Below the pieces are notes generated by a model. It was not told where the DNA came from and did not search any database. It saw nothing but the letters and a program-made list of their open reading frames with translations. DNA of 64,000 bases from Ianthella basta. Taxonomy: Eukaryota; Porifera; Demospongiae; Verongiida; Ianthellidae. The translations under genes were made by a program, and so were the position numbers. Positions 2,029 to 52,588 of the stretch are shown here, piece by piece (within the stretch, counting starts at the first letter, position 1; every line of letters starts with the position of its first letter). Where the stretch lies: positions 1 to 64,000 of the forward strand of contig CAXHTE010000110.1 in NCBI GenBank assembly GCA_964019415.1, in the 5' to 3' direction.

Positions 2029-3351
2029 TATTATTATTATTATTGAAAAACACACCAGTGAAGGTGCAAAGGAGCAGAAACAGCACAAGTTAAGTTACAT
2101 GGTGGAGGCTGAGGATACAATAAAGTCTAATTCTGACTGAGCAAAATGGGGAATTACAGAGTGAGTATCTCGGATCTCTCTAATTAGATGACCCACAGCA
2201 ACATGATCGGTGGAATAAGATTTACAATGAGAAGGACCAAACATACAGTTGTACCCTATAAAACCTGAGTTACATACTAAAGAACTTTCATGAAAAACAG
2301 AACGAATGAAACTAGATGAGTGAGATAATGCAGTGGAAAGTAGTCTGATAAATCTGGAATAAATGATGTTGTAAATGCTTTTAGTAAATCCAACAGCATG
2401 GGCAATAGACGTATGGCAATTGTGTGGAAGATTCCAAATTCGTCTGATAACATTGTTAAACGACACATGAAGAGATCGGATGTCTGGGGCATCGAGCCTC
2501 CACAATGCGCACCCATACAGTGAAAGACAGTATGCATTGAATAGTTTCATCTTTGTCTCCGGATTACACCCCTTAAATCGAAACAGGACAGAGTTAGCCT
2601 GGCGGATAAATGCCATTGATTTTAAATGAATATCCAGCTTATCAGACAAGTCATACTGCAAAGTATTCCCAAGGTGAACGACTGAATCAACCATAGGCAG
2701 GCAGTGGCCACAGAGTGAGAAGCGGGTATGATCAGAACCTGCAGTACGTCTAAAACATATAAGTTGAGTCTTATCAGCATTGAATTGAATCCCATGAGCC
2801 TGAGCATATTGTTCACATAGGGCAAGCATCTTTCTAAGGGCATCTGGGGATGGAGCAAGAATGGTTAGATCATCGGCATAGCAAAAAGCCCCGGAGAAGT
2901 GATCCTCCCAGTAACAGCCACGACCACTAGTACGAAGTGAATCTAGCAGGCCATCAAGATAAATTGTGAACAATATTGGGCTAAGGACACCGCCTTGGCG
3001 AACCCCATTGGAGACCTCAAAGTGGTCAGAGGATTTACCCAACCATCGAACACACAATTTCTGAGACTTGTACCACTGCAATAACAGACGTACAATAGGC
3101 TTGGGCATTCTTCTTTCAAGCAATTTTGAAAACAGGATGCCGTGGTCAACTGTGTCAAAAGCTTTTGAGGCATCAATCAAGCAAGCATACACTTTAGAAC
3201 CTTTATTCAAGTAGCGATTGATAACAGATTTCATGACACCAGTACAAAGGGTAGTAGAAAAGCCAGATTTGAAGCCAAATTGTAAATCACTCATGATAAA
3301 GAATTCATTCCAGGTAATCAGAATGGACCACTCTAGGACTTTGCTTATGAG
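2029..3351 (-). mobile_element. 5'-truncated non-LTR retrotransposon inside the satellite
   Basis: A unique 1.3-kb block interrupts the satellite. Read on the minus strand it carries the C-terminal part of a reverse transcriptase, about 60 nt of 3' UTR, and a terminal (AAT)n run at about 2029-2044, as in many CR1/L2/jockey-like elements that end in a simple repeat. The 5' end is cut off at about 3351, where satellite resumes. A target-site duplication cannot be recognised because the flanks are themselves repeats. Confidence 0.85.
2095..3351 (-). pseudogene. Reverse transcriptase fragment (non-LTR ORF2 type)
   Basis: One open frame of about 418 codons with no start at its true beginning: it opens at the truncation point with a segment typical of the RT fingers (ISKVLEWSIL). 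Counting from the first Met (3294), motif A is DASKAFD (41-47), motif B is GVRQGGVLSP (97-106) and the catalytic motif is YADD (139-142), followed by thumb sequence and the ORF2 C-terminal region, ending at TAA 2095. All three catalytic aspartates are present and there is no internal stop, so the insertion looks young. The endonuclease and the RT N-terminus are missing, so the copy is dead. The clade is not resolved; FGFKSGFST and VRQGGVLSP resemble CR1/L2/jockey-like RTs. Confidence 0.88.
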
Positions 3352-6300
3352 AAGGTAAGATTAAGCAAGATATGACAAGGTAAGATTTGGCAAGATATGA
3401 CAAGGCAAGAATCGGTAAGATATGACAAGGTAAGATTAGGCAAGATTCGGCAAGATATGACAAGGTAAGATTAGGCAAGATTCGGCAAGAAATGACAAGG
3501 TTAGATGAGGCAAGATATGACAAGGTAAGATTAGGCAAGATATGACAAGGTAAGATTAAGCAAGATTAGGCAAGATATGACAAGGTAAGATTAGGCAAGA
3601 TTCGGCAAGAAATGACAAGGTTAGATTAGACAAGATATTACAAGGTAAGATTAAGCAAGATTAGGCAAGATATGACAAGGTAAGATTAGGCTAGATTTGG
3701 GAAGATATGACAAGGCAAGATTAGGCTAGATTCGGCAAGATATGTTAAGGTAAGATTAGGCAAGATTCGGCAAGTTATGACAAGGTAGGATTAGGTAAGA
3801 TTCGGCAAGAAATGACAAGGTTAGATTAGGCAAGATATGACAAGGTAAGATTAGGCAAGATATGACAAGGTAAGATTAGGCAAGATTCGGCAAGATATGA
3901 CAAGGTAAGATTAGGCAAGAATCGGCAAGAAATGACAAGGTAAGATTCGGCAAGATTCGGCAAGATATGACAAGCTAAGATTAGGCAAGATTCGGCAAGA
4001 AATGACAAGGCTAGATTTGGCAAGATTTGGCAAGATATGACAAGGTGAGATTTAGCAAGATAAGGCAAGATATGACAAGGTAAGATTTAGCAAGATAAAG
4101 CAAGATATGACAAGGTAAGATTAGGCTAGACTCGGCAAGATATGACAAGGTAAGATTAGGCAAGATTCGGCAAGAAATGACAAGGTAAGATTAGGCAAGA
4201 TATGACAAGGTAAGATTAAGCAAGATTAGGCAAGATATGACAAGGTAAGATTAGGCAAGATTCGGCAAGAAATGACAAGGTTAGATTTAGCAAGATTCGG
4301 CAAGATATGACAAGGTAAGATTAGGCAAGATTCGGCAAGAAATGACAAGGTAAGATTTAGCAAGATTCGGCAAGATATGACAAGGTAAGATTAAGCAAGA
4401 TTAGGCAAGATATGACAAGGTAAGATTAGGCTAGATTTGGGAAGATATGACAAGGCAAGATTAGGCTAGATTCGGCAAGATATGTCAAGGTAAGATTAGG
4501 CAAGATTCGGCAAGTTATGACAAGGTAGGATTAGGTAAGATTCGGCAAGAAATGACAAGGTTAGATTAGGCAAGATATGACAAGGTAAGATTAGGCAAGA
4601 TATGACAAGGTAAGATTAGGCTAGATTCGGCAAGATATGACAAGGTAAGATTAGGCAAGAATCGGCAAGAAATGACAAGGTAAGATTCGGCAAGATTCGG
4701 CAAGATATGACAAGGTAAGATTAGGCAAGATTCGGCAAGAAATGACAAGGTTAGATTTGGCAAGATTTGGCAAGATATGACAAGGTGAGATTTAGCAAGA
4801 TAAGGCAAGATATGACAAGGTAAGATTTAGCAAGATAAGGCAAGATATGACAAGGTAAGATTAGGCTAGACTCGGCAAGATATGACAAGGTAAGATTAGG
4901 CAAGATTCGGCAAGAAATGACAAGGTAAGATTAGGCAAGATATGACAAGGTAAGATTAAGCAAGATTAGGCAAGATATGACAAGGTAAGATTAGGCAAGA
5001 TTCGGCAAGAAATGACAAGGTTAGATTTAGCAAGATTCGGCAAGATATGACAAGGTAAGATTAGGCAAGATTCGGCAAGAAATGACAAGGTAAGATTTAG
5101 CAAGATTCGGCAAGATATGACAAGGTAAGATTAAGCAAGATTAGGCAAGATATGACAAGGTAAGCTTAGGCAAGATATGACAAGGTAAGATTTAGCAAGA
5201 TTCGGCAAGATATGACAAGGTAAGATTAGGCAAGATTCGGCAAGAAATGACAAGGTAAGATTAGGCAAGATATGACAAGGTAAGATTAGGCAAGATTCGG
5301 CACGAAATGACAAGGTAAGATTAGGCAAGATATGACAATGTAAGATTAGGCAAGATTCGGCAAGATATGACAAGGTAAGATTAGGCTAGGTTCGGCAAGA
5401 TATGACAAGGTAAGATTTTGCAAGAATAGGCAAGCTATGATAAGGTAAGATCTGGCAAGATTAACAAGATTTGGCAAGATATGAGAAGGTAAGATTAGGC
5501 AAGATTTGGCAAGATATGACAAGGTAAGATTAGGCAAGATTTGGCAAGATATGACAAGGTAAAATTAGGCAAGATTCGGCAAGATATGACAAGGTAAGAT
5601 TTGGCAAGATATGACAAGGTAAGATTAGGCAAGATATGACAAGGTAAGATTAGGCAAGATTCGGCAAGATATGACAAGGTAAGATTAGGCAAGATTCGGC
5701 AAGATATGACAAGGTAAGATTAGGCAAGATATGACAAGGTAAGATTAGGCAAGATTCGGCAAGAAATGACAAGGTAAGATTTAGCAGGATTCGGCAAGAT
5801 ATGACAAGGTAAGATTAGGCAAGATTCGGCACGAAATGACAAGGTAAGATTAGGCAAGATATGACAAGGTAAGATTAGGCAAGATTCGGCAAGATATGAC
5901 AAGGTAAGATTAGGCTAGGTTCGGCAAGATATGACAAGGTAAGATTTTGCAAGAATAGGCAAGCTATGATAAGGTAAGATCTGGCAAGATTAACAAGATT
6001 TGGCAAGATATGAGAAGGTAAGATTAGGCAAGATTTGGCAAGATATGACAAGGTAAGATTAGGCAAGATTTGGCAAGATATGACAAGGTAAAATTAGGCA
6101 AGATTCGGCAAGATATGACAAGGTAAGATTTGGCAAGATATGACAAGGTAAGATTAGGCAAGATATGACAAGGTAAGATTAGGCAAGATTCGGCAAGATA
6201 TGACAAGGTAAGATTAGGCAAGATTCGGCAAGATATGACAAGGTAAGATTAGGCAAGATATGACAAGGTAAGATTAGGCAAGATTCGGCAAGAAATGACA

Positions 6301-12566: not shown

Positions 12567-12868
12567 TTGGGAAAGAAAGGGAACCAAGTGAACACTGCAC
12601 ACAAACAATATGCACTACATGCACTTCTGATAATGGTAAGCCCCTACGTATATACGTATACAGAGAGATGTCTGTGCATGTGTAAGTGTGTGCTTGAGTA
12701 CATGTGTATGTGTACGTGCGTATGTGAGTCCATGGTCAATGCAATACAGTCCACACATTGCACTGTGCACTAGATGAGACACATTACATGAACACATTTT
12801 GACACAAAATAGCTCCCCCCTAGGTGTCCATGGACATGGTCCATGTCTACACCAACTACCACCACTCA

Positions 12869-15178
12869 CTTGTACACCGTCCACTCACACACTACCCACT
12901 CATACACCGTCCCCTCACACACTACCCACTAGTACACTGTCCACTCACACACTACCCACTTGTACACCGTCCACTCACACACTACCCACTAGTACACTGT
13001 CCACTCACACACTACCCACTTGTACACCGTCCACTCACACACTACCCACTCGTACACCGTCCACTCACACACTACCCACTAGTACACCGTCCACTCACAC
13101 ACTACCCACTAGTACACCGTCCACTCACACACTACCCACTTGTACACCGTCCACTCACACACTACCCACTCGTACACCGTCCACTCACACACTACCCACT
13201 AGTACACCGTCCACTCACACACTACCCACTCATACACCGTCCACTCACACACTACCCACTAGTACACCGTCCACTCACACACTACCCACTCGTACACCGT
13301 CCACTCACACACTACCCACTTGTACACCGTCCACTCACACACTACCCACTTGTACACCGTCCACTCACACACTACCCACTCGTACACCGTCCACTCACAC
13401 ACTACCCACTAGTACACCGTCCACTCACACACTACCCACTCATACACCGTCCACTCACACACTACCCACTAGTACACCGTCCACTCACACACTACCCACT
13501 CGTACACCGTCCACTCACACACTACCCACTTGTACACCGTCCACTCACACACTACCCACTCATACACCGTCCACTCACACACTACCCACTTGTACACCGT
13601 CCACTCACACACTACCCACTCGTACACCGTCCACTCACACACTACCCACTCGTACACCGTCCACTCACACACTACCCACTAGTACACCGTCCACTCACAC
13701 ACTACCCACTTGTACACCGTCCACTCACACACTACCCACTTGTACACCGTCCACTCACACACTACCCACTTGTACACCGTCCACTCACACACAACCCACT
13801 AGTACACTGTCCACTCACACACTACCCACTCGTACACCGTCCACTCACACACTACCCACTAGTACACTGTCCACTCACACACTACCCACTTGTACACCGT
13901 CCACTCACACACTACCCACTCGTACACCGTCCACTCACACACTACCCACTAGTACACCGTCCACTCACACACTACCCACTTGTACACCGTCCACTCACAC
14001 ACTACCCACTCGTACACCGTCCACTCACACACTACCCACTAGTACACCGTCCACTCACACACTACCCACTAGTACACCGTCCACTCACACACTACCCACT
14101 TGTACACCGTCCACTCACACACTACCCACTCGTACACCGTCCACTCACACACTACCCACTTGTACACCGTCCACTCACACACTACCCACTCGTACACCGT
14201 CCACTCACACACTACCCACTTGTACACCGTCCACTCACACACTACCCACTTGTACACCGTCCACTCACACACTACCCACTCGTACACCGTCCACTCACAC
14301 ACTAGTACACCGTCCACTCACACACTACCCACTCGTACACCGTCCACTCACACACTACCCACTCGTACACCGTCCACTCACACACTACCCACTTGTACAC
14401 CGTCCACTCACACACTACCCACTAGTACACTGTCCACTCACACACTACCCACTCGTACACTGTCTACTCACACACCACCCACTTGTACACCGTCCACTCA
14501 CACACTACCAACTAGTACACTGTCCACTCACACACTACCCACTAGTACACTGTCCACTCACACACTACCCACTCGTACACTGTCTACTCACACACTACCC
14601 ACTTGTACACCGTCCACTCACACACTACCCACTAGTACACCGTCCACTCACACACTACCCACTAGTACACCGTCCACTCACACACTACCCACTAGTACAC
14701 TGTCCACTCACACACTACCCACTCATACACCGTCCACTCACACACTACCCACTAGTACACTGTCCACTCACACACTACCCACTCGTACACTGTCTACTCA
14801 CACACCACCCACTAGTACACTGTCCACTCACACACTACCCACTTGTACACCGTCCACTCACACACTACCCACTAGTACACCGTCCACTCACACACTACCC
14901 ACTCATACACCGTCCACTCACACACTACCCACTAGTACACCGTCCACTCACACACTACCCACTCATACACCGTCCACTCACACACTACCCACTAGTACAC
15001 CGTCCACTCACACACTACCCACTCGTACACCGTCCACTCACACACTACCCACTTGTACACCGTCCACTCACACACTACCCACTAGTACACCATCCACTCA
15101 CACACTACCAACTCGTACACCGTCCACTCACACACTACCCACTCGTACACCGTCCACTCACACACTACTCACTCACAC
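12869..15178. repeat. 30-bp minisatellite, about 77 copies
   Basis: Tandem 30-bp unit containing GTACACCGTCCACTCACACA and ending in CTACCCACT. Units differ mainly at a two-base position (AG, CG, TG or CA before TACAC), with rarer CCG/CTG and CCA/CTA changes. Because 30 is a multiple of three, frames of hundreds of codons stay open on the plus strand; these are not genes. A short unit near 14,305 shifts the frame. The same minisatellite sits at the homologous place in blocks B and C. Confidence 0.97.
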
Positions 15179-15262
15179 ACAACACTTGTACACCCCCACT
15201 TGTACATTGTCCACTCACACAACACCCATTCACAAACTATTACACTCTCGCACAACACACAC

Positions 15263-15427
15263 CTGTCCGTCTCATTGGCCTCTGCCCACTTCTCAATCCA
15301 TGGAAGCCAGCAGCCTGTGTCACATTACGGTAGCTCCTCCTCACAGCTCCTGTGCGGTTGATGTGGGAGAGGTGCACTGGTGAGGGAAGAGCCTGCTGCA
15401 TTGAATGTGTGGCCGGTATGACACTGA
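15263..15427 (-). CDS. NLR-tail exon (SVIPATH type), block A
   Basis: 165 nt, phase 1-1, acceptor TTGCAAG and donor ACAG|GTGTG. It encodes a basic, Ser/Thr-rich peptide starting SVIPATHSMQQALPSPVHLS and containing GAVRRSYRNVTQAAGFHGL. The block C copy (38587-38751) differs at only a few residues and has no frameshift. No known domain is recognised. It lies between the Ser/Asp-rich tail exon upstream and the minisatellite intron downstream. Confidence 0.5.
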
Positions 15428-27342: not shown

Positions 27343-27739
27343 TATAAGGAATGGAAATTATAGCTCATGTAACACATCAGTACTAGTGTAGTCTGACGTA
27401 GCCCAGACCCACTTCCAGCCATTATATATCACGCAAAGGGCAGGAAGTGATGAGGCAGTGCTTTATAAAATCATTTGTATGATATACGTACGTATGCTAG
27501 TATCCAATGTGATGAAACTACTCCTCACCAAAATTTGTTTGGCACAATGTCTGCAGTTGTGCACAATGTATATATACGAGATGTAAAATAGAACTCCTGT
27601 AACACATCAGTGAGGGAGTGCTTTGTAAACATATCTGTATAATAATTATGCTAGTATAAATTAAATCCAATCCCATATTCAAATGTATTTAAATTGGTAT
27701 CCAAGTAGAACACAAAGATCTGATGAAATTGCTCCTCAC

Positions 27740-29392
27740 CATCTGGTAGGTGCAATGTCTGCAGTACTCCACTGGCATAGACTGGCTCCAGCAAGCGATG
27801 GACTTCTGCAGAACTTCCACCTTTCTCAATGGTGAGGCGTTTCAACGAGGGGAGCACAGAGAGACAATAGCCGTAGGCTGTGGAGTCATAAGCAGTCTTG
27901 GGCTTCACTTTCACCTCTTCTCCAACAATACGTGGCATCAGGCGGCGAACAAATGAAATGTCTTGCGTCTCGAAAAGGCACTGCATTTGAAAGTCTATGG
28001 GATATGAGTTTATCCCCTTTTGAAGGCGGTCAAAGTGCTGTAATTTAGTCAATCCACAATAAAAGCGCCACACCTGTGCCATGTGGGGCTCACCGAGATA
28101 CCTGGCCCAGATTTCACATTGACTGCCTGCTGTCAGGAGAGACACATAAACAGCAGCAAGGAATTCTTGTACAGTCAAGTGAATGAAGAAGAAGCTTTCA
28201 ATGGCACCTTTCTTGGACTTCGGATTGCATCGAATGGGCCTAGCTGTTAAAACGCCACACCCCCTCTTACGGTCTGAGAAGCGCTCACCGAGACCCTGAA
28301 GATCAACTGAATCAAACACTACTTTTTGCTTTTGGATGCAATTATAAGCAATTTCCCCGAGTTTATAGATATCATGGTCCTTTGGAAGATCCAGGATAGA
28401 ATTCAGTTCAGGCAAGTCTTCGCTGTACTTTAGTACTTTCACACAGAGGTAGTCATTGTAAATTTGTGTCAGCGTTGGTGGAAGGTCCTCTCTAAATAGA
28501 AACACTTGACAAATGATGGACAGAACAACCGGGATTGAACAGAGGCCTCTAATCTGTGGAAAAGCATCTATCTTCTTGACAAATAAGTCACACAGGTCTG
28601 GTCGCTGTTGATTAGAGAAATATTGCTTTGCATAAATCTTGATCTGGTCCTGAGTGAAACCGAGCACCTCGATATTAGTTAGATTAACTTGGCTACGAGA
28701 CATCAGCATTTGGTGGTAGATCTCGCTTGTTACAATGGAGCGAGATATTAGAATAACATCACAGTCTGGAAGAGGGGAATCACGGTTGTGCGACAGAAGG
28801 TTCACAAGGAAGGCAGATCGTTGAAGATGAGGTGGAAGCTCGTCAAACCCATCCAGAACAAAGAGCACATCTCTCCCTCGGCTCCTATAAATGACCTTAG
28901 ACACTTCCTCCAGGGGCATGGTGTCTTCTATCATTCCTTGGAACATCTGTAAAAGGTCTACTAATGCGAAGTTTTCCTCACAATGTAACAAGTCACGCAA
29001 CTCAACCAGGAGGACTGTGACGTAACCATGGCAATCAGGAGATCGGCAGACATCTTGGCACACCTTCCGAGCTAACGTACTTTTACCCACCCCGGGAGCA
29101 CCACTAATGATTACAAGTTTATGTTCTTTCACCAGTTGAGGGATTGCCTCACATTCAATTCGATCAGTCTGGTAGGAGTAGACATTGTCAACGCCCATTG
29201 TCACAGCTTCTACAAACATTTCTTGGGCACGCCGATGACCCAGATAGAAAGGAGCAAGGGCTAAGTTCACGTACTGCATTCTCTGATCAGCAAGGAGCCA
29301 CTCATCCTCAACAATCTTCATTTTCTCATAGAAATTCCTAAGTCGACAGAAGAGGAACTTTACCTGCTCTCCTCCCCCTCCTCCTCCATCGG
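27740..29392 (-). CDS. NLR gene 1, NACHT exon
   Basis: 1653 nt, phase 1 to 1, one uninterrupted frame. Acceptor TTGCACTCTGCAG, donor GATG|GTGAGG. After a short Gly-rich linker the protein has the P-loop GAPGVGKST (29076-29102), Walker B LDGFDE (28839-28856), a sensor-1-like stretch (CDVILISRS) and the NACHT-associated GLCSIPVVLSIICQVF, then a winged-helix/superhelical region with FFFIHLTVQEFLAAVY, the NLR motif at the NACHT/LRR boundary. This is a STAND NTPase: nucleotide exchange at the P-loop drives oligomerisation after LRR sensing, in the cytosol. The N-terminal partner is a CARD exon joined in phase. Gene 2 holds the paralogue. Nothing essential appears to be missing. Confidence 0.92.
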
Positions 29393-30212: not shown

Positions 30213-30539
30213 CATTTCCTCCACCTTGTTTGAACTGCTCAGACAACCTTTCCAGCTCATCTGCCCAGACGTCTTGGTTGCTGTTTCGCAGCATTTGGCA
30301 AAATATCTGAAAGTCATCATCTGTTTTCCCTCGTAGTGTCTCAATGACCCTGTCCACTTGGTCACTGCTGGTGGGCAATCCTCTCACCATCTGGGCCTCT
30401 CTTTGGCTCATGAATCCTCCCGCCACTTTCTCTAGCTTATCACTGAGGCCTGTATTCATTAATACATTGAGCTTGAGGCTCTCTCTCAATGAGAGCAAGG
30501 CAGCAACATTCCAAGAACTCATGGGACGGGGTTTACCAT
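30213..30539 (-). CDS. NLR gene 1, CARD exon
   Basis: 327 nt, symmetric phase 1-1. Acceptor CTTGTCTCACTTCCAG, donor AATG|GTATGT. LRESLKLNVLMNTGLSDKLE, MSQREAQMVRGLPTSSDQVD and RVIETLRGKTDDDFQIFCQM follow the helix pattern of a caspase-recruitment domain like that of NOD1/APAF1 (L...R..L...., L.D.L......S..D/E...V, ....V...L...G...F..F...L). CARDs recruit effectors by homotypic contact. The exon joins in phase to the leader upstream and to the NACHT exon downstream through a Gly-rich linker. Gene 2 has a Death domain in the same place. Confidence 0.85.
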
Positions 30540-30923
30540 CTGGAAGTGAGACAAGGGGCAAAGTACAGTCTTTGGCAAACCAGTTCTGACAACGCTTAAC
30601 TACACATAACTGGCTAGTTACTACATATAAACATAGTAGGCATGCAAGTACTGATGGAATTGACCCAACAAAAGATGCCAAGGACACTGTACATTACCAA
30701 TCAATCCACATGGCAGTAGATCAATGAGGAAGATCAAGTTTAAATGTACACAGACAGTGAGACATTCCTAATTAAGGCCCACTACTGACGAGGACCCCAG
30801 CTAGTGGTCCCAGCAACAATAACAATCAGTCAAACTTAGAAAACAGATCTGAAAAGCTAGTTAGCTAGCTAGAAAGCTGCCCCACTTTGGTACATGCACC
30901 ATTTTTACATTCCCATTATTTAC

Positions 30924-31173
30924 CTGTCTCCACTGGTCCAGGGTTGAGCTCTACATCCCCACTCTGAATGAGGAGGAGTCGGGGAGGCATTGCACAAGCT
31001 AACATGAGCAGGTAAAGAAGTGGAAGGACCCCTCTCTTCACCGCATGCGTGTTGGACCTGGAGGACGAGGGAGCAGCTGTCATCTTCGCTCCTCCTCCTT
31101 TCAACAACCACCTCATTCGACTGCAGTTGAACAGCCCAACAGACACGCGCCACTGCTGGGCGGAGATGGGCAT
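30924..31173 (-). CDS. NLR gene 1, leader exon with 2A-like motif
   Basis: 250 nt, ending in phase 1 at donor ACAG|GTAAAT. Start taken at 31173 (MPISAQQW), the first Met conserved in both copies; an upstream Met at 31191 exists only here. Residues 1-48 are basic and Ser-rich, residues 49-61 are strongly hydrophobic (VLPLLYLLMLACA), and residues 67-80 read LLIQSGDVELNPGP (motif at 30934-30960). DxExNPGP is the ribosome-skipping consensus of 2A peptides; the Gly-Pro bond is not formed and the next product starts with Pro. Known from sea-urchin NLRs: such leaders act both as signal sequence and recoding element. The inferred outcome here is a 79-residue leader plus a Pro-initiated CARD-NACHT-LRR protein, and a fused form sent to the secretory route. 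Confidence 0.88.
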
Positions 31174-31420
31174 CTTGCAAAGCCTGGGCACGTAGGGAAG
31201 GAGGGAGGTAGCTAGCTATAATGAAACCATTCCACATGTACCAAACAACATCGGAGGCTAACTTCTTAGCCCTAGTGTTTATGCTTTAGCTAACTGTACG
31301 GGCTCACGTCAAAGAATGTGACAGGAGCACACAACTCACTTTTCGTCTGACTAGTCCGCGTATAGAGAGCGACTGAAATCAGTGACGTAGAACAAAGCCG
31401 TTCAAGTGCTAGGCTGGTAA
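31174..31420 (-). promoter_or_regulatory. Conserved 5' region of NLR gene 1
   Basis: The segment upstream of the leader shares blocks with 52589-52810 upstream of gene 2 (ACTAGTCCGCGTATA, GACTGAAATCAGT, GGAGGCTAACTTCTT, CACGTCAAAGAATG). CTTTGACGTGAGC on the minus strand holds a CRE-like TGACGTGA. This suggests a shared promoter or 5' UTR; no start site can be placed. Confidence 0.35.
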
Positions 31421-32382: not shown

Positions 32383-32764
32383 GTGAGGAGGGATGGGGAG
32401 GAGTGTGTGGTGAGAGTACAGAAAAGAGAGTGAGCGTGGAGTAGTTGTAATTGTGCATGGCCATGATGGGTGTGGAGCAAGTAGGAGGTGTGGTTTGGGG
32501 AAGTGGCACTGAGGGCAGTTGTAATGGTACAGGGAAGGAGTGGATGTGTTGGGAAGGTGGGTGAAGAGTGACAATGTGTGGGTGTAAGTGTCATGGATGT
32601 TGCACAATGTGTGAAAGCTGTTGAGGGTGTTGGTTTAGTGTGTGTACTGTGTAGGATGAGGTTGGAGGTGACGGTAGATAGTGAGTGTAGAATATAGCTA
32701 GTGAAGTGACTGCTATTCCTCCACTAACCCAGTCCCCTCTCCCTCCTTCCCTCACTCTCCTCAG

Positions 32765-32864
32765 ATTGTGTCTGTAGGAGAGATTGTGAGTGTCAGTAAG
32801 TCCCAGACCAATGTGGTGTACAAGATGGACGACCGCACCGGTCCACTGGTGGATGTCAAAAGTG
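32765..32864 (+). CDS. rpa2: RPA2 OB-fold exon
   Basis: 100 nt, phase 0 to 1. Acceptor CTCTCCTCAG, donor AGTG|GTTAGA. IVSVGEIVSVSKSQTNVVYK then MDDRTGPLVDVK matches the core OB-fold strands of replication protein A 32-kDa subunit (V-x-I-V-G-x-I, TN-I/V-VYK-I/M-DD-x-T, P-x-DV). RPA2 is part of the RPA trimer that coats single-stranded DNA in replication and repair. The following OB-fold exons are not found; a 51-bp minisatellite and an NRBP-type exon lie downstream instead, so this is a gene fragment unless the intron is very long. Confidence 0.72.
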
Positions 32865-33021
32865 GTTAGACGACCAGGAGTTGTGGGCGGAGTCAAGTGC
32901 AGGTGTGCATGTATATGTGTGTTGGTGTCAGTGTGTACATTGAAGTGAATGGTGTGAGTGTTGACCAGTATAAGAAGGAGGGTGTGTGGAGGTGAATGGA
33001 CTGCCTGCGTATTAGCATTGT

Positions 33022-34700
33022 GTGCCAGTGGACGTGTAGTGTGAGTCACCACTGGGGACATCTGGTGCACATGTAGAGTGTAGCGTGTAGTGTGAGTCAC
33101 CACTGGGGACATCTGGTGCACATGTAGAGTATAGCGTGTAGTGTGAGTCACCACTGGGGACATCTGGTGCACATGTAGAGTATAGCGTGTAGTGTGAGTC
33201 ACCACTGGGGACATCTGGTGCACATGTAGAGTATAGCGTGTAGTGTGAGTCACCGCTGGGGACATCTGGTGTACATGTAGAGTGTAGCGTGTAGTGTGAG
33301 TCACCACTGGGGACATCTGGTGCACATGTAGAGTATAGCGTGTAGTGTGAGTCACCACTGGGGACATCTGGTGTACATGTAGAGTGTAGCGTGTAGTGTG
33401 AGTCACCACTGGGGACATCTGGTGTACATGTAGAGTATAGCGTGTAGTGTGAGTCACCACTGGGGACATCTGGTGCACATGTAGAGTATAGCGTGTAGTG
33501 TGAGTCATCACTGGGGACATCTGGTGTACACGTAGAGTGTAGCGTGTAGTGTGAGTCACCACTGGGGACATCTGGTGTACATGTAGAGTATAGCGTGTAG
33601 TGTGAGTCACCACTGGGGACATCTGGTGTACATGTAGAGTGTAGCGTGTAGTGTGAGTCACCACTGGGGACATCTGGTGCACATGTAGAGTATAGCGTGT
33701 AGTGTGAGTCACCACTGGGGACATCTGGTGTACATGTAGAGTATAGCGTGTAGTGTGAGTCACCACTGGGGACATCTGGTGTACATGTAGAGTATAGCGT
33801 GTAGTGTGAGTCACCACTGGGGACATCTGGTGCACATGTAGAGTACAGCGTGTAGTGTGAGTCACCACTGGGGACATCTGGTGCACATGTAGAGTATAGC
33901 GTGTAGTGTGAGTCACCACTGGGGACATCTGGTGCACATGTAGAGTGTGTAGTGTGAGTCACCACTGGGGACATCTGGTGTACATGTAGAGTATAGCGTG
34001 TAGTGTGAGTCACCACTGGGGACATCTGGTGCACATGTAGAGTATAGCGTGTAGTATGAGTCACCACTGGGGACATCTGGTGTACATGTAGAGTATAGCG
34101 TGTAGTGTGAGTCACCACTGGGGACATCTGGCGCACATGTAGAGTATAGCGTGTAGTGTGAGTCACCACTGGGGACATCTGGTGTACATGTAGAGTATAG
34201 CGTGTAGTGTGAGTCACCACTGGGGACATCTGGTGTACATGTAGAGTACAGCGTGTAGTGTGAGTCACCACTGAGGACATCTGGTGCACATGTAGAGTAT
34301 AGCGTGTAGTGTGAGTCACCACTGGGGACATCTGGTGCACATGTAGAGTATAGCGTGTAGTGTGAGTCACCACTGGGGACATCTGGTGCACATGTAGAGT
34401 ATAGCGTGTAGTGTGAGTCACCACTGGGGACATCTGGTGTACATGTAGAGTGTAGCGTGTAGTGTGAGTCACCACTGGGGACATCTGGTGTACATGTAGA
34501 GTATAGCGTGTAGTGTGAGTCACCACTGGGGACATCTGGTGCACATGTAGAGTATAGCGTGTAGTGTGAGTCACCACTGGGGACATCTGGTGTACATGTA
34601 GAGTATAGCGTGTAGTGTGAGTCACCACTGGGGACATCTGGTGCACATGTAGAGTATAGCATGTAGTGTGAGTCACCACTGGGGACATCTAGTGCACACA
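33022..34700. repeat. 51-bp minisatellite, about 33 copies
   Basis: Tandem 51-bp unit containing GTGTGAGTCACCACTGGGGA and CATGTAGAGTATAGCGTGTA. Variation is mostly GTGCAC/GTGTAC and AGTATAG/AGTGTAG. The period is 17 codons, so minus-strand frames of several hundred codons remain open; these are not genes. One unit near 33,940 is shortened. Confidence 0.97.
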
Positions 34701-35076
34701 GCCAGTGAACCACACCAGTTGATGATGGAATGTAAGGGGCGGAGAATATGTCATTTCAATGAGGAACAATAGTACAGTCAATACTTGTATAATATTGTGT
34801 AATAAAATGTATAGCATTGTGTAGTTAATATAGTAAGCTATGCTATTGTTACTATACCATGGGTGTGTTGCAGTATTGCTGTATTCTGTGCAGTCCTGCT
34901 CTTCCCATCAATGTTGTGTTTGTCCCTCTACACAGGGAGGGTATATTGGTTGGTGTGTTGGGTCACATCCACACCTTCACTCAGCACCACATGCAGTGTG
35001 CTGGGTCCTCATCCATAGCTGTCACTGTCCATGTTGTTGTATCACTGTTATCACTCTCCTCCCTCACTCACTTTAG

Positions 35077-46102: not shown

Positions 46103-47714
46103 CATCAAGGTGCAATGTCTGCAGTGTTCCACTGGCATAGACTGGCTCCAGTAAGCGATGGACTTCTGCAGAACTTCCACCTTTCTCAATGGTGAGGCAT
46201 TTCAATGAAGGCAGTACAGAAAGACAATAGCCGTATGCTGTGGAGTCATAAGCTGTCTTGGGCTTTACAGTCACCATTTCTCCTACAATACGTGGCATCA
46301 GGTCACAAACCAATGAACTATTTTGTGTCTCAAATAGGCACTGCATTTGAAAGTCTACGGGATATGAGTTTATCCTCTTCTGAAGGCGGTCAAAGTGCTG
46401 TAATTTAGTCAATCCACAATAAAAGCGCCACACCTGTGCCATGTGGGGCTCACCGAGATACCTGACCCAGATTTCACACTGACTGTCTGCTGTCAGGAGA
46501 GACACATAAACAGCAGCAAGGAATTCCTGTACAGTCAAGTGGATGAAGTAGAAGCTTTCAATGGCACCTTTCTTGGACCTTGGATCATTTCGAATGGGCC
46601 TACCCGTCAAAACACCACACACTGTTTTACGGTCATCTGAGAAGCGCTTATCAAGACCCTGGAGATCAGATGAAGCAAAAACAATTTTTTGGTTCTGAAT
46701 GCAGTTATAAGCAATATTCCCGAGTGTATAGATATCATGCTCTTTTGGAAGATTCACAATGGATTTCAGTTCAGGTAAGTCTTCGCTCTGCTTCTGTACT
46801 TTCACACTAAGGTAGAAATCGTAAATTTGAGTCAATGTCGGTGGAAGGTCTTCCTTATATATGAACACTTGACAAATAATGGACAGAACAACAGGGATTG
46901 AACAGAGGCCTCTAATCTGTGGGACACTGTCAATCTTCTTTACGAACTTGTCTAGCAGGTCTGGTTGCCCTTGATCAGTAAAGAAGTGGCCAGCATACTC
47001 CTTGATCTGCTTCTGAGTGAACCCAAGCACCTCGATATTAGTTATACCAGTCCGCACTTTGTCATATATCTCACTTGTTACAATAGATCGAGATGTCATA
47101 ACCACATGGCAATATGGCAGAGGGGCACTGCACTCCAGATTGTGTGACAGAAGGTTTGCAAGGAAGTCAGACTGCCGAAGGTGAGGGGGAAGTTCATCAA
47201 ATCCGTCCATAATGAAGAGTACACCTCTTCCCAGGTTCCTATGAATGGCTTTAGACAATTCCTCAGGTGATGTGGTGTCTCCTATCATTCCTTGGAACAA
47301 CTGCAAAATATCTACTAATTTGAAATCTTCCATAACATGCAGGAGTTTACGTAACTCTACCAAGAGGACCAAGCTGTAACCATGGCAATCAGGAGACTGG
47401 CAGACATCTTGGCACACCTTCCGAGCCAATGTACTTTTACCCACCCCGGGAGCACCACTAATGATTACAAGTTTATGTTTTTTCACCAGTTGAGGGATTG
47501 CCTCACATTCTACCTTACCAGTCTGGTACGTGTACACGTTATCAACACCTTCCTTAACTGCTTTAACGAACATCTCTTGGGCATAGTGCGAGCCCAATCT
47601 GAAGTTAGCAAGAGCGAGGTTGATGTAGCACATTGTCTGGTTGGGGAACCACTCATCTTCCACAATGTGTATACTGCTATAATGGTCCCTCATTCGGCTG
47701 AAGAAGGACTCCAT
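46103..47714 (-). CDS. NLR gene 2, NACHT exon
   Basis: 1612 nt, phase 0 to 1, one open frame. Acceptor CTTTTGTACACAG directly before MESFFSRMRD; donor GATG|GTGAGT. P-loop GAPGVGKST (47430-47456), Walker B IMDGFDELP, GLCSIPVVLSIICQVF and FYFIHLTVQEFLAAVY are intact. It lacks the Gly-rich linker of gene 1 and starts in phase 0, matching the phase 0 end of the Death exon at 51452. The 5' 60 codons are clearly more divergent from gene 1 than the NACHT core. STAND NTPase function as for gene 1. Confidence 0.92.
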
Positions 47715-48452
47715 CTGTGTACAAAAGTGGACAGGAAGAGACCACATGCGTGACACAGCATGTAGTACATGCAGTTGGGTAGTCTCAAATGGCCAGCCCC
47801 TTTCCAGTATTGCACAAGCGTCTGTGATTAATTATGCAAGACCAGAAGGAAAGGGTCCGGCCGCATGAGAGTATATATAGCAGTGACTGGTCACAAAGTC
47901 ATATTCATTGCACAGTGCATATACAGTTTAATTAATAGACAGGCCTTAGGCAAGTGAAGAAAGGACCTGCTACAGCTTGAGACAGGACACTGAGATGTCT
48001 TTTAACCGTCCCAATTAAATCCTCAAAGCAATCCTGTCCGTGGATTACTAGGAAAAGTGTGAAACAAACTTTAGGATCATTGAATAGAGTGATTATATAC
48101 ACAATACAGGATAAGGAGGTCACAATAATCATTACCAGTGAAGTTTTGTTATACTGTTGCACTAGTTAATTGATAAATCAAGCAAATGAGTCTGAAGTAT
48201 GCATGCATACTGTAAAACAATTAATGCTATATATACTATGCTCAATCTATTGCCTCGCAGTGGCTAACTGCATAAGCAATTCCCCCTTTGACAACGCTTC
48301 AGTCATGACGACTGTAGCCTGCCTTGTCTGTTTCTGTTGAAACCACAAGCGTTTAACTTGCGGTGGATACAGAAGCAGCCAGTCATCCAACCATCAACCA
48401 TCAGTACGCCACACTGATGAGGTCCAATTAGGGTAAAACAGCTGTCTGTGGT

Positions 48453-49011
48453 TCTGTACTTTTGTATACCGCTTATCCAGGGTCATGGAACATTGTTTGA
48501 TTTAGAGTGATGTTCGAGTTAAACCATAGTCGACATAGTGACTGTCTGTGGCTCTTCCATCTTTGTTGGATGACTAGTGGGGGAGGCGATCACTGGTTGC
48601 CAACCAATAGGGCTTCGTGCCCCCTGCCAACTGAGACACCAATACTGGTGTAGTTGTTGGTAGGTCAGGCGTAATACCCAGTGAATACCCTTTCAATATA
48701 CTACACTGTTCAAGATATTCTTCCTGATTTGTCACTACACTTGTCTAGTGCTAACAACTTCAGTAATCTTATCATGAACAGGCTTGCATGTGGCTCCATA
48801 ATTATTCTCTGAATGTGCACAAGGGCACCAATCATGTGTCAGAAAGATGGCTGGCCATAAGCAGTAAGCACAAAATGGAATAATTCTGGCTTAAGAGTTG
48901 ATTCACAAGGTACAATGGAATTGCATTAAGTCAACTATGGTTTAACTCGAACATCGCTCTAAATCAAACAATGTTCCATGACCCTGGACAAGCGGTATAC
49001 AAAAGTACAGA
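48453..49011. mobile_element. Element with inverted repeats of about 82 bp
   Basis: 48453-48534 and 48931-49011 are reverse complements with a few mismatches (TCTGTACTTTTGTATACCGC at the outer end), around about 400 bp of non-coding sequence. Downstream, CATTAACTGGAAC and TTCCAGTTAATGAG occur at 49,385-49,450, suggesting nested or composite remains of pogo-like elements. Confidence 0.7.
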
Positions 49012-50281
49012 AAAGTGTCTCATTAGTTCAAACATCAATTGCGTTAACTGGAACACTTTTAGAAGAACATATTATTACTAAAATGTACGTACATTTAACA
49101 ACGACAAAAGTACTACAGAGTCAATAAATCATAGCTCCACTGTTTCTAGCTCCCTTCGTAGTACAGGCACTACACAGGTTACAGGGAACTTGTTTGAAGG
49201 GTACTTGAATAGCCACCGACGACTAACAATATCCACTAGTAAGCATCAAACCAAAGAACGCTTCAATTCGCCTCGTCAGTTAGACGATTTCGTGCCATTT
49301 ACTTTTATCTTCGTGTGAAACCACCATACTGATGATGTCATAATGTGTGTCTTACATAGTTTGCTAAATTTATATTGAATTTCATTAACTGGAACTCTCA
49401 GTAACTAGAACCTTTCATGAGGTCCCCTGGAGGTTCCAGTTAATGAGATTCCACTGTATTATAGCAATCACTGAAGAAGATCACAAGCCTGCATGAAATG
49501 CACAACATGACTCAGTCTAGCTGCTAGCTGCCACCACGCGAGATGACAAAGTAAGGGCTAGCAGCTAGACTAAACACGATCGAGTGTACCACCTGGCTCA
49601 ACCAAAGGAGGGCACACAAGCTAATGAGTATGATAAAAGTCAGCCTACTGTCGATATCATCACAAAATGTGCCAATATGTGTAGATCAAATTCACTTCAA
49701 GCACTTGAGCTGAATCATGCTGTTGCCTACCACATGACTAAGGAAGTGACCTAAACCAGTGAAAAGAAGCTCTAGGATCACTAGATGCAGGCACCATCAA
49801 CAGTTACTCAAATCCTCTTTGCGTCACGCATACGTATAGCTATGCACTTCAGCCAATTCCAATGCTCCACACACCTTTTGAAGCACAAGCTTAATGTTGG
49901 CAGTTGCTTGCCATATGTTTGGATAAATGACATATAAACAGTACACTGTTTAGGCACAAATGAGCGTAAAACAAATGGAATGATGATTTCCTGTATCTTT
50001 TCTACACATAAAATGGTTGCAGAGGTGACACCAGCTCTGATATCACCACAACCCACATAATATTATTTAGCATCCATGTAACTTGGCTACGAAAATCACA
50101 CATTATTTGTATACAATGTGTACATAGATTGGTTACATACTTATTGTGCAAGGACAAGCTACAGTTCATAGGCTGAAAGTAGGACAGAAGACTATCGTAA
50201 ACCTGCAAACTTTTCAGACTTTTCATTGCAAATTTCAAAGTTTTGGAGGAAATATACTCTTTTTCGTTCACATCTTGTTAA

Positions 50282-50748
50282 CCCATTAGCGCCGAATGAC
50301 GCCTGTAGGCGTCATTTATTAGTTTGCGCGTAAGTCCGGATGACGCCTGTAGGCATCATAACCGAAAGCGTGCATTAAGCTTTGTATATTTCTCGCTACG
50401 AGCCTTGCAAGGACACACCACTTTCGAAGGATAGATAGCAGTCACGGAGCTTTGAACAGCCGCGTTGTCCCGTACCTTACTTGCGTCCAAAGCCTGCACT
50501 CGAGCGCCAAAGTTCGCACTCAGTACGCAACGGGTGAAGGTGAGTTTATTACACAACGCAGCGACTAAACCAGGGCGAGCAAGAGTCTTGAAGTCTTATG
50601 AGACGACCCTTCCATCTTTCTTTCTTCCTATCGTCTCGGGCGCAAATTAAGTTAAAAAACCGTGGCACACCGAATAGCTCACGTGCATCGCCATTTTAAT
50701 TCCGGCACCTGGTGCATGGCGCGAATTTTAAACTTCAGCGCTAATGGG
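50282..50748. mobile_element. piggyBac-type MITE with TTAA duplication
   Basis: TTAA (50278-50281), then CCCATTAGCGCCGAA, and at the other end TTCAGCGCTAATGGG followed by TTAA (50749-50752). CCC/GGG termini with TTAA duplications are diagnostic of piggyBac-type elements. It is 467 bp with no transposase. A subterminal direct repeat GATGACGCCTGTAGGC occurs twice near the left end. Confidence 0.85.
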
Positions 50749-51451
50749 TTAAAATTAGGGTCTCTTGTGAAATGGGAGGCACCCTCTGCCACCATTTTCC
50801 AGAATAGCTTCACGAGTAAAATGCCGCCATTGGCACTTTTTTAATTGGCATTATCTCAGAGGTCTGGAGCCCCACTATTGCAGAGAATTTTGTATGGTTC
50901 ACCGAGGACAGAACGCTCAGGACAGGAGGGCCGTAGCTATCACCTGTGCTACTCGTAGCCAGCTAATCTCAACACGTCACACATGTCCAAAGGCAACACT
51001 GCTAGCTACATTAGGTGTGCTTACTGTTGCTAGGTACCATTTCACAAGGTGCATTATGCAGTACCCTGGTAATCATTGCCAACAATTAGAGGCCTACACA
51101 AATTTTAGAGTCGTTCTAGAATTAAAACTTTTACAACAGTTTGAAGGCAAGACTGTGGGAAGTTTGTGAAAATTAGATTATTGAATGTTACAAGATTTAT
51201 GATACATCTCATGTGTACCAGGGAAGAAAGTGGGATTTATAGGAACAGTAAGTTCTTTGTCAAGTACCTCTCAGGCAGGTCTGCCTGAGTTGTACCACAC
51301 AGTCTATCCCACTAGACCCTCCCACCCCAAGGTAGGCCTGCGTGGGGAGCTAGGGTATAACACAATAGACTAGTATTACACAGCCAGTTTACCTGGACAA
51401 CAGGTAAGTTTGGACAGATGAATATATCATGTAATATATGCAGATACTTAC

Positions 51452-51777
51452 TATTTTCAGACAGTTATCATCAAGTGTAGAATCTGTTGTCAATGTTTTC
51501 AGTTTATCCTCAATTCTCTCTTTCGCTCCAGGTCCAATTACCGTTTCAACTGCTCCTAAAACAGAAAGCCATGTACGAGGTTGATCACCTGTTCCAGGCG
51601 TTCTGTATAACCACAGAGCTAGGAGCTCCATTGCACATCCTTCTGCCTTCTGCTCATTGTACTCAACAGTGTTCAAGACCTCACGCTGCACTCCCAAGGC
51701 ATACCCCACCATCTTCCACTTTGCCGCAATAGTTGGGACAACGTGTCTTAAAAGATCACTCAGGGATGGCTTGGCAC
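51452..51777 (-). CDS. NLR gene 2, Death-domain exon
   Basis: 326 nt, phase 1 to 0. Acceptor GTGCTCTGTATAG, donor AATA|GTAAGT. KPSLSDLLRHVVPTIAAKWK, MVGYALGVQREVLNTVEYNE and CAMELLALWLYRTPG...TWLSVLGAVETV match the Death-domain pattern (L..L...I...W..LG..LG......I, C...LL..W.......TW..L..AL). Death domains recruit effectors homotypically. It joins in phase to the 2A leader at 52339 and to the NACHT exon at 47714. Confidence 0.83.
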
Positions 51778-52338
51778 CTATACAGAGCACATCAGGTACA
51801 AACACATGCAGTGGAATAGGATATCAATGCAGCAGGACAATGAGAATATGGTGTGGCAACTAAATACATGTACGTGTAATAAGTAACCCGATAACAATTA
51901 TCACTAATACCAACACCCAGGTAACCATATACAGTACATACTCAATGCAGATACGTACATGTATAATGTGACTAATAAATTAAAGGATAAATACAAATGA
52001 ATGACGTTTTTTGCTGTTACTGTGAGCCGCACAGAAGAGATGACAGAGATATACTGACACCTCCTGCATGTTGTTAGTATGCTGTGCAACTTAGAGGAAA
52101 ACTGTTTACGCTAGGGAGGAAGACTGGGTCAGTCCGAAAGAGAGAACATGACACATGCCAGTGGAGGCAGTATGGGGCACTGGTCTACGTCAGACTAGAA
52201 ACATACAGGAACATATCACTAGGGATAATAACACACCACAATAAAGCATTTGAATTACCATAGCAATAGCAAACTAGCTATGTAGCTGGGCTGCCATGTT
52301 AACTGTATGGCACATCAAATATGTCCTTTCATATTCAC

Positions 52339-52588
52339 CTGTCTCCACTGGTCCAGGGTTGAGCTCCACATCCCCACTCTGAATGAGGAGGAGTCGGGGA
52401 GGCATTGCACAAGCTAACATGAGCAGGTAAAGAAGTGGAAGGACTCCTCTCTTCACCGCATGCGTGTTGGACCTGGAGGACGAGGGAGCGGCTGTCATCT
52501 TCGCTCCTCCTCCTTTCAACAACCACCTCATTTGACTGCAGTTGAACAGCCCAACAGACACGCGCCACTGCTGGGCGGAGATGGGCAT
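52339..52588 (-). CDS. NLR gene 2, leader exon with 2A-like motif
   Basis: 250 nt, same length and phase as the gene 1 leader; donor ACAG|GTGAAT. The motif GDVELNPGP is at 52349-52375. From MPISAQQW to the splice site the encoded peptide differs from gene 1 at one residue (Arg19 to Gln), although the NACHT exons of the two genes have diverged visibly. Predicted behaviour is the same: ribosome skipping at Gly-Pro with a released Death-NACHT-LRR protein, or a fused protein led by the hydrophobic VLPLLYLLMLACA segment. An upstream Met at 52663 is possible but not conserved. Confidence 0.88.

Follow-up and report, generated by a model that had tools for sequence, protein, structure and literature searches.

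In the StopGo (2A) reaction, as set out in PMC12846837, the ribosome pauses with glycine in the P site, and the Asp, Glu, and Asn residues of the octapeptide are important; upstream contexts are Leu-rich, with (A/S/C)G preceding the aspartate (p12 = D). The same paper describes 2A motifs as mostly a viral feature that occurs only very rarely in cellular coding sequences; its text contains neither "sponge" nor "Porifera" (PMC12846837). In the sea urchin S. purpuratus, 2A sequences fall into two main categories, retrotransposons and NLRs, and 85 of 241 NLRs carry a 2A-like sequence (PMC4981915). For one of these receptors, SpNLR2A6, skipping of about 80% was obtained in vitro, and in HeLa cells the wild type gave cytoplasmic products while the skip-dead P3A mutant went to the Golgi (Roulston, 2016, PMC4981915); with these reporter results, the sea-urchin precedent on which the original prediction for the present locus drew is a real one. 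Among sponges, the NLR repertoire of Dysidea avara resembles that described below in its many CARD-, DEATH-, and NACHT-containing genes, some with transmembrane segments, and the terms "NPGP", "signal peptide", and "leader" do not occur in that text (PMC12909245). A search of the open-access PMC literature returned no title on 2A leaders in sponges, which does not prove their absence from print.

Here, we describe a 2A-bearing leader exon in the window, that is, the whole stretch of 64,000 nucleotides of Ianthella basta DNA that was analyzed. Judged by its sequence, the leader is an extension of the known sea-urchin-type NLR-2A arrangement: it is longer, contains a conserved box, and is shared between genes as one exon. 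As in SpNLR2A, an N-terminal 2A preceded by hydrophobic residues is found on DEATH-NACHT receptors in many genes, although the N-terminal sequence comprises 26 residues in the sea urchin and 80 residues, from M1 to P80, in the sponge (PMC4981915). In contrast to SpNLR2A, an additional QWRxx[I/V]G box and a linker precede the hydrophobic segment, the exon is common to CARD and DEATH genes, and in Amphimedon the box-bearing leader is also found on ankyrin and phosphorylase proteins. The leader shares with viral 2A the (D/G/C/N)(V/I)ExNPGP core and the Leu-rich residues with SG before p12 = D; viral 2A, however, separates the parts of a polyprotein, whereas this one belongs to a cellular first coding exon (PMC12846837). 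Non-LTR retrotransposon 2A is likewise found in cellular genomes with the same motif (PMC4981915), but it sits in the ORF of the element rather than in a small spliced exon of a receptor gene.

The leader exon and its two receptor genes

The leader of gene 1 and its parts are as follows.

30924..31173, minus strand: leader exon of gene 1, first coding exon; 250 nt, that is, 83 codons plus one base, with a phase-1 GT donor
31174..31203, minus strand: predicted 3' splice site, ctccttccctacgtgcccag/gctttgcaag, a pyrimidine-rich AG 10 nt 5' of the ATG
31129..31173, minus strand: N-terminal box, residues 1-15, MPISAQQWRVSVGLF, pattern QWRxx[I/V]Gx[W/F]
30991..31029, minus strand: hydrophobic core, residues 49-61, VLPLLYLLMLACA; predicted helix 41-61
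30934..30957, minus strand: 2A/StopGo octapeptide DVELNPGP, residues 73-80; predicted skip between G79 and P80

Translation of 31173..30924 on the minus strand yields an 83-residue leader, MPISAQQWRVSVGLFNCSRMRWLLKGGGAKMTAAPSSSRSNTHAVKRGVLPLLYLLMLACAMPPRLLLIQSGDVELNPGPVET, whose C-terminal end, up to the phase-1 GT donor, reads LLLIQSGDVELNPGPVET (also given as SGDVELNPGPVET). This bears out the original prediction of a 250-nt first coding exon with a hydrophobic core and a 2A end. An equivalent of the splice acceptor is located 5' of the ATG at all 30 leader loci compared, versus 84 of 713 control ATGs; since an acceptor just upstream of the start codon makes an upstream exon likely, the leader exon is probably the first coding exon, though not the first exon of the transcript. 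A second open frame, ORF 30920..31285, also runs through the exon.

A structure model of the leader (low confidence, mean pLDDT 62) places helices at residues 5-24, 41-61, and 64-70. The helical moment of the N-terminal helix is low and the helix is not clearly amphipathic, and the idea of an amphipathic helix in the box was dropped for that reason; a comparison of the leader with Pfam gave no family match. The predicted skip product would carry a single hydrophobic helix near its C-terminus, as tail-anchored proteins do, and is most likely a membrane-prone peptide.

The octapeptide core (D/G/C/N)(V/I)ExNPGP is in frame in all 30 leaders L001-L030. Its upstream context, LLLIQSGDVELNPGP, is Leu-rich, ends in SG before the Asp, and fits the classes given in PMC12846837 with one unusual Gln: the window leader has LLIQSG where most of the distant relatives listed have LLILSG, a replacement of Leu by Gln. 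Skipping at this leader is rated as likely.

Downstream of the leader, gene 1 continues with two further exons, and the window contains a second gene of the same design.

30213..30539, minus strand: CARD exon of gene 1; PF00619, 27.1 bits against a cut-off of 23.9; AG/GT, phases 1/1
27740..29392, minus strand: NACHT exon of gene 1; PF05729, 69 bits against a cut-off of 26.7
52339..52588, minus strand: leader exon of gene 2; peptide 99% identical to the gene 1 leader
51452..51777, minus strand: DEATH-like exon of gene 2, phase 1 to 0; PF00531, 16.2 bits, under the cut-off of 22.6
46103..47714, minus strand: NACHT exon of gene 2; PF05729, 68.3 bits

The leader, CARD, and NACHT exons of gene 1 form one open frame, with GT donors and AG acceptors at both junctions, and splicing of the leader to the receptor exons is predicted from these borders and their fitting phases. 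The 3' end of the gene 1 NACHT exon was placed by eye at the donor that matches gene 2, and the exon could extend to the stop at 27651. In gene 2 (52588..46103, minus strand), leader, DEATH-like, and NACHT exons follow one another in order. Both genes thus encode the NACHT domain of an NLR (69 and 68.3 bits); as for an N-terminal death-fold domain, the CARD of gene 1 scores above the Pfam cut-off and the Death match of gene 2 below it (16.2 versus 22.6 bits). Of the predicted in-phase join to CARD-NACHT-LRR exons, the CARD and NACHT parts hold, with GT/AG borders, fitting phases, and no stops, but the LRR part was not confirmed: no LRR family matched any of five stretches searched, four of which are two homologous pairs from both genes.

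Elsewhere in the window, a reverse-transcriptase-like ORF of 421 aa (2095-3360, minus strand; identified by eye), without a 2A motif, is probably a fragment of a non-LTR retrotransposon. Long minisatellite-like arrays of short peptide repeats occupy 12778-15333 (plus strand) and 32591-34755 (minus strand) and remain open as ORFs, with lengths of 851, 558, and 455 aa among them.

Copies, conservation, and probable concerted evolution of the exon

The leader had been predicted as a feature of one NLR gene, and its CARD-NACHT host stands; the exon is, however, not peculiar to that gene but is one exon present on dozens of receptor genes. The 209 Mb genome contains 33 matches, with 28 on contig C4, three on C95 (the contig of the window), and one each on C51 and C1. 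In 29 of the 33, a DEATH (21) or CARD (8) exon follows within about 5 kb; the remaining four have no CARD or DEATH exon in view nearby, the DEATH exon search of the genome having scored 150 of 814 first-look candidates. An in-frame TAG interrupts three of the 33 leaders (C4:4047936, L022; C4:5224247, L029; and C4:4062748) and four of the 21 DEATH exons adjoining leaders, so some copies appear to be decaying. At L039, the next leader comes before any CARD or DEATH exon; this copy and the leaders with a TAG are putative decaying or orphan copies. For each of four exons, CARD and NACHT in gene 1 and DEATH and NACHT in gene 2, C4 carries a copy with 100% identity in protein. Across C95 (90 kb) and C4:12.12-12.17 Mb, the leader, CARD, DEATH, and NACHT exons are identical or near-identical and their order matches, and C95 looks like a second haplotype or a duplicate of this C4 stretch.

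The 2A motif is more frequent than chance would give: a genome search at the DNA level with the pattern for D[V/I]ExNPGP gave 360 matches, and the reversed pattern gave none. In the regions scanned, the sole 2A site other than window-type leaders belongs to a second leader type, at L047, which was encountered through its 2A alone. It reads MPISNEQWRVAVGLW...LLIVIMILLFLSGDIETNPGP (also written MPISNEQWRVAVGLW...SLLIVIMILLFLSGDIETNPGP), has the same layout as the window leader, and has 108 matching relatives on C4, in arrays on C2, and on other contigs. NACHT exons fill the C2 arrays; phosphorylase (PF01048) genes were considered as hosts of these arrays and ruled out, with only three matches in the genome. 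Each of the 31 NACHT matches listed for C1 and C2 (31 of 81, the listed 2A positions running into C3) has a same-strand 2A site 2.4-14.4 kb upstream. In a rotation control on the C2 arrays, 18 of 28 NACHT matches have such a site within 8 kb versus a rotated mean of 8.8, and 29 of 2000 rotations reach 18, a control that is only moderate because the arrays are dense. The 2A is not attached to every NACHT gene: the Pfam NACHT matches at C2:173959 and C3:4247970, the one match listed on each of these contigs after scoring 102 of 469 candidates, have no same-strand 2A site within 20 kb upstream among the listed positions. Separately, 2A-like matches fall within ORFs of about 1,140-1,200 aa at C4:8996516, C1:4945170, C4:3937789, C10:5354981, and C13:1589286, which may be 2A-bearing retrotransposons.

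Selection on the leader was examined in 24 of the 26 distinct leaders (the two that have stops were omitted, and one extra codon was removed from L017) drawn from 30 of the 33 places, without the C1 copy L051. Mean dN/dS, over 276 non-independent pairs of these open leaders, reaches 0.69 in residues 31-65 but is only 0.154 in residues 1-30 and 0.061 in residues 66-83; the low values at both ends imply that the leader ends are kept as protein. Residues 70-81 (QSGDVELNPGPV) show no amino-acid change over the 24 distinct leaders while eight of their codons vary silently, and silent changes are present in both 2A and box codons. Selection at the protein level acts strongly on the 2A part and also on residues 1-30, while in the linker and hydrophobic middle it is mainly the character of the residues that is preserved. 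Within the box, Q7, W8, R9, and G13 are invariant in the 24-sequence alignment A4; among the 24 distinct leaders of this genome, R9 is Cys in seven and Q7 is Pro in three.

The exon and the receptor that it precedes have diverged to different degrees. Among 12 genes (66 pairs; 12 of the 14 regions having both exons, with L033 and L048 omitted, of 20 fetched), mean dS of the leader is 0.085 for CARD-CARD, 0.075 for DEATH-DEATH, and 0.082 for CARD-DEATH pairs, compared to 0.107, 0.427, and 0.599, respectively, for the NACHT exon. Between CARD- and DEATH-type genes, silent divergence of NACHT is thus about sevenfold that of the near-identical leader exon, and between six CARD and seven DEATH loci, identity is limited to the leader exon and its splice sites, from acceptor to donor. 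A leader that stays near-identical across CARD and DEATH genes while NACHT diverges would be evolving in concert, and the data fit exon-wide gene conversion within each species. A weaker alternative, which we consider improbable, is that the low silent divergence instead reflects selection on the nucleotide sequence itself, through RNA structure or an overlapping frame. The alternative frame that is open through the exon (ORF 30920..31285) and the leader dS of about 0.08 in all three pair classes would agree with it, but 2A and box codons do vary silently. Moreover, a group of seven relatives that is apparently outside this genome (no genome leader match under 85% identity) has residues fixed in all its copies, as concerted evolution expects: of 14 fixed differences from the leaders of this genome, the linker and hydrophobic core account for 13, and the first 31 columns have none.

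Relatives of the leader

Searching other proteins for the same leader, as had been proposed for NLRs, was productive: a profile of 20 leaders and a query with an Amphimedon leader both found relatives with box and 2A, including proteins of A. queenslandica. The profile returned 181 proteins at E<=1, and a strict 2A is present in 118 of the 120 listed. Features common to the distant relatives are the QWRxx[I/V]Gx[W/F] box close to the N-terminus, a hydrophobic segment, and (L-rich)SGDVELNPGP. The sharing of box and 2A was partly selected for, because the search profile held both; the L047 leader provides an independent case. With the Amphimedon leader as query, 129 long proteins were found at E<=10, and of the 120 listed, 117 have the 2A and 109 have both 2A and box. 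Every named match among these 120 is from Amphimedon queenslandica, where the leader is hosted by NACHT, DEATH-ankyrin, and phosphorylase proteins; by eye, the 120 comprise 52 with NACHT, 49 with ankyrin (one also with NACHT), three with phosphorylase, and 17 with none of these domains. A hydrophobic segment (KD15 at least 1.6 within the 40 residues before the 2A) is found in 110 of 112 and 113 of 117 relatives, and in the Amphimedon leaders another hydrophobic stretch lies further upstream. A homology search with a 744-aa query that included the window leader gave 51 candidates, none of which scored E<=10. For viral relatives, one leader-profile scan of IMG/VR gave three stretches with the pattern, none of them a relative by tblastn.

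In 12 of the 120 listed long proteins, other residues replace the Leu-rich stretch directly before the octapeptide. The A. queenslandica models P0208, P0214, P0217, P0221-P0228, and P0238 lack LLLLSG, and PPTG (in some, PPTGKQTNR) abuts the octapeptide, which reflects either model error or a splice choice that removes the 2A context. Inspection by eye of P0022 and P0023 indicated that the upstream half of the leader is apparently in another frame with the 2A still in frame; these are either frameshift alleles or a real alternative start.

Proposed mechanism and alternative readings

Taken as a whole, the observations are probably best explained by a shared StopGo leader cassette that is usually skipped, giving a small peptide and a Pro-started cytosolic receptor. 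Concerted evolution would keep a portable cassette—splice acceptor, start codon, box-bearing N-terminal helix, flexible linker, hydrophobic helix, 2A, and phase-1 donor—common to many CARD- and DEATH-type NACHT receptor genes. The ribosome would pause when G79 occupies the P site and would, in most cases, skip the G79-P80 bond, freeing a 79-residue, tail-anchored-like leader whose core ends 18 residues from the C-terminus; the receptor would then be made separately, as a cytosolic protein starting with Pro. Unskipped chains would retain the leader, and the hydrophobic helix, emerging later as a signal or anchor, would give a minor leader-fused form. The analysis shows the sequence, the exon borders, the selection on the leader, its sharing between genes, and its relatives; splicing in the RNA, skipping and its efficiency, membrane insertion, and the fates of the products are inferred.

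The order of these events bears on how the leader is to be read. The ribosome exit tunnel holds 30-40 residues, and the hydrophobic core (49-61), ending 18 residues short of G79, lies 18-30 residues from the peptidyl-transferase center at the moment of skipping. The core should therefore still be inside the tunnel, the decision to skip would precede signal recognition, and dual targeting would hinge on ribosomes that fail to skip. On a dual-targeting reading, which we regard as possible but doubtful, the leader is built to skip only part of the time, and the receptor that keeps it as a signal is a functional form, secreted or in a membrane, that watches over a second compartment. The core stays hydrophobic though its letters drift (dN/dS of 0.69 across residues 31-65, and the KD15 counts given above), and ACA/M after the core would fit the -3,-1 rule. 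CARD and DEATH domains, however, are expected to signal in the cytosol. The octapeptide is invariant, leaving no variation with which to tune leakiness; the n-region spans about 48 residues with the first 30 conserved, more than a signal peptide requires; and the core should remain in the tunnel when the skip occurs. Sponge NLRs with transmembrane segments have been noted (PMC12909245), and the authors of PMC4981915 conclude dual targeting for SpNLR2A6 from reporters, but their HeLa images place the wild type in the cytoplasm and the skip-dead mutant in the Golgi.

Another reading makes the released leader the point of the arrangement: a functional small tail-anchored peptide, produced one-to-one with the receptor, with its QWR box facing the cytosol. 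Purifying selection on residues 1-30, the concentration of fixed differences of the seven-member group in the linker and core (13 of 14, with none in the first 31 columns), and the recurrence of the box in leaders that are otherwise unalike all argue for such a role, whereas the lack of a Pfam family, the N-terminal helix that is not clearly amphipathic, and the substitutions of R9 by Cys (7/24) and Q7 by Pro (3/24) argue against it; we hold the idea only tentatively. Conservation of the box could also serve the nascent chain instead. Only residues before about 45 would be outside the ribosome at the pause, and the box would therefore be the part that a cytosolic factor could read in choosing between skip and no skip. 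The fuller proposal—that sponges use StopGo on large receptor classes, with a concerted leader exon supplying a one-to-one tail-anchored peptide whose cytosolic box acts in immunity or receptor regulation, next to a Pro-started, cytosolic receptor—strikes us as rather unlikely in its entirety. Very unlikely, in our judgment, is a leader left over from a non-LTR retrotransposon with 2A, or from a repeat, as a decayed or hitchhiking sequence without function in receptor genes. The 2A matches in ORFs of about 1,140-1,200 aa, possibly retrotransposons, and the repetition of the leader block, with stops in some copies, could be so explained, but purifying selection with exact 2A conservation, the retention of acceptor-like and donor sites with fitting phases, and the related leaders on immune-type Amphimedon proteins speak against it.

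Dozens of receptor genes in a single genome thus encode StopGo, which is also present, with a conserved extra box, in immune-type proteins of Amphimedon; sea-urchin NLRs are the prior receptor case that we found. If skipping is true, gene models have led to misreadings of the N-termini, stoichiometry, and location of sponge receptors. Some predictions of "membrane-bound NLRs" in sponges may be explained by the 2A leader; if skipping is true, they could in part represent cytosolic receptors accompanied by a separate membrane peptide. A directly testable target is offered by the QWRxx[I/V]G box.
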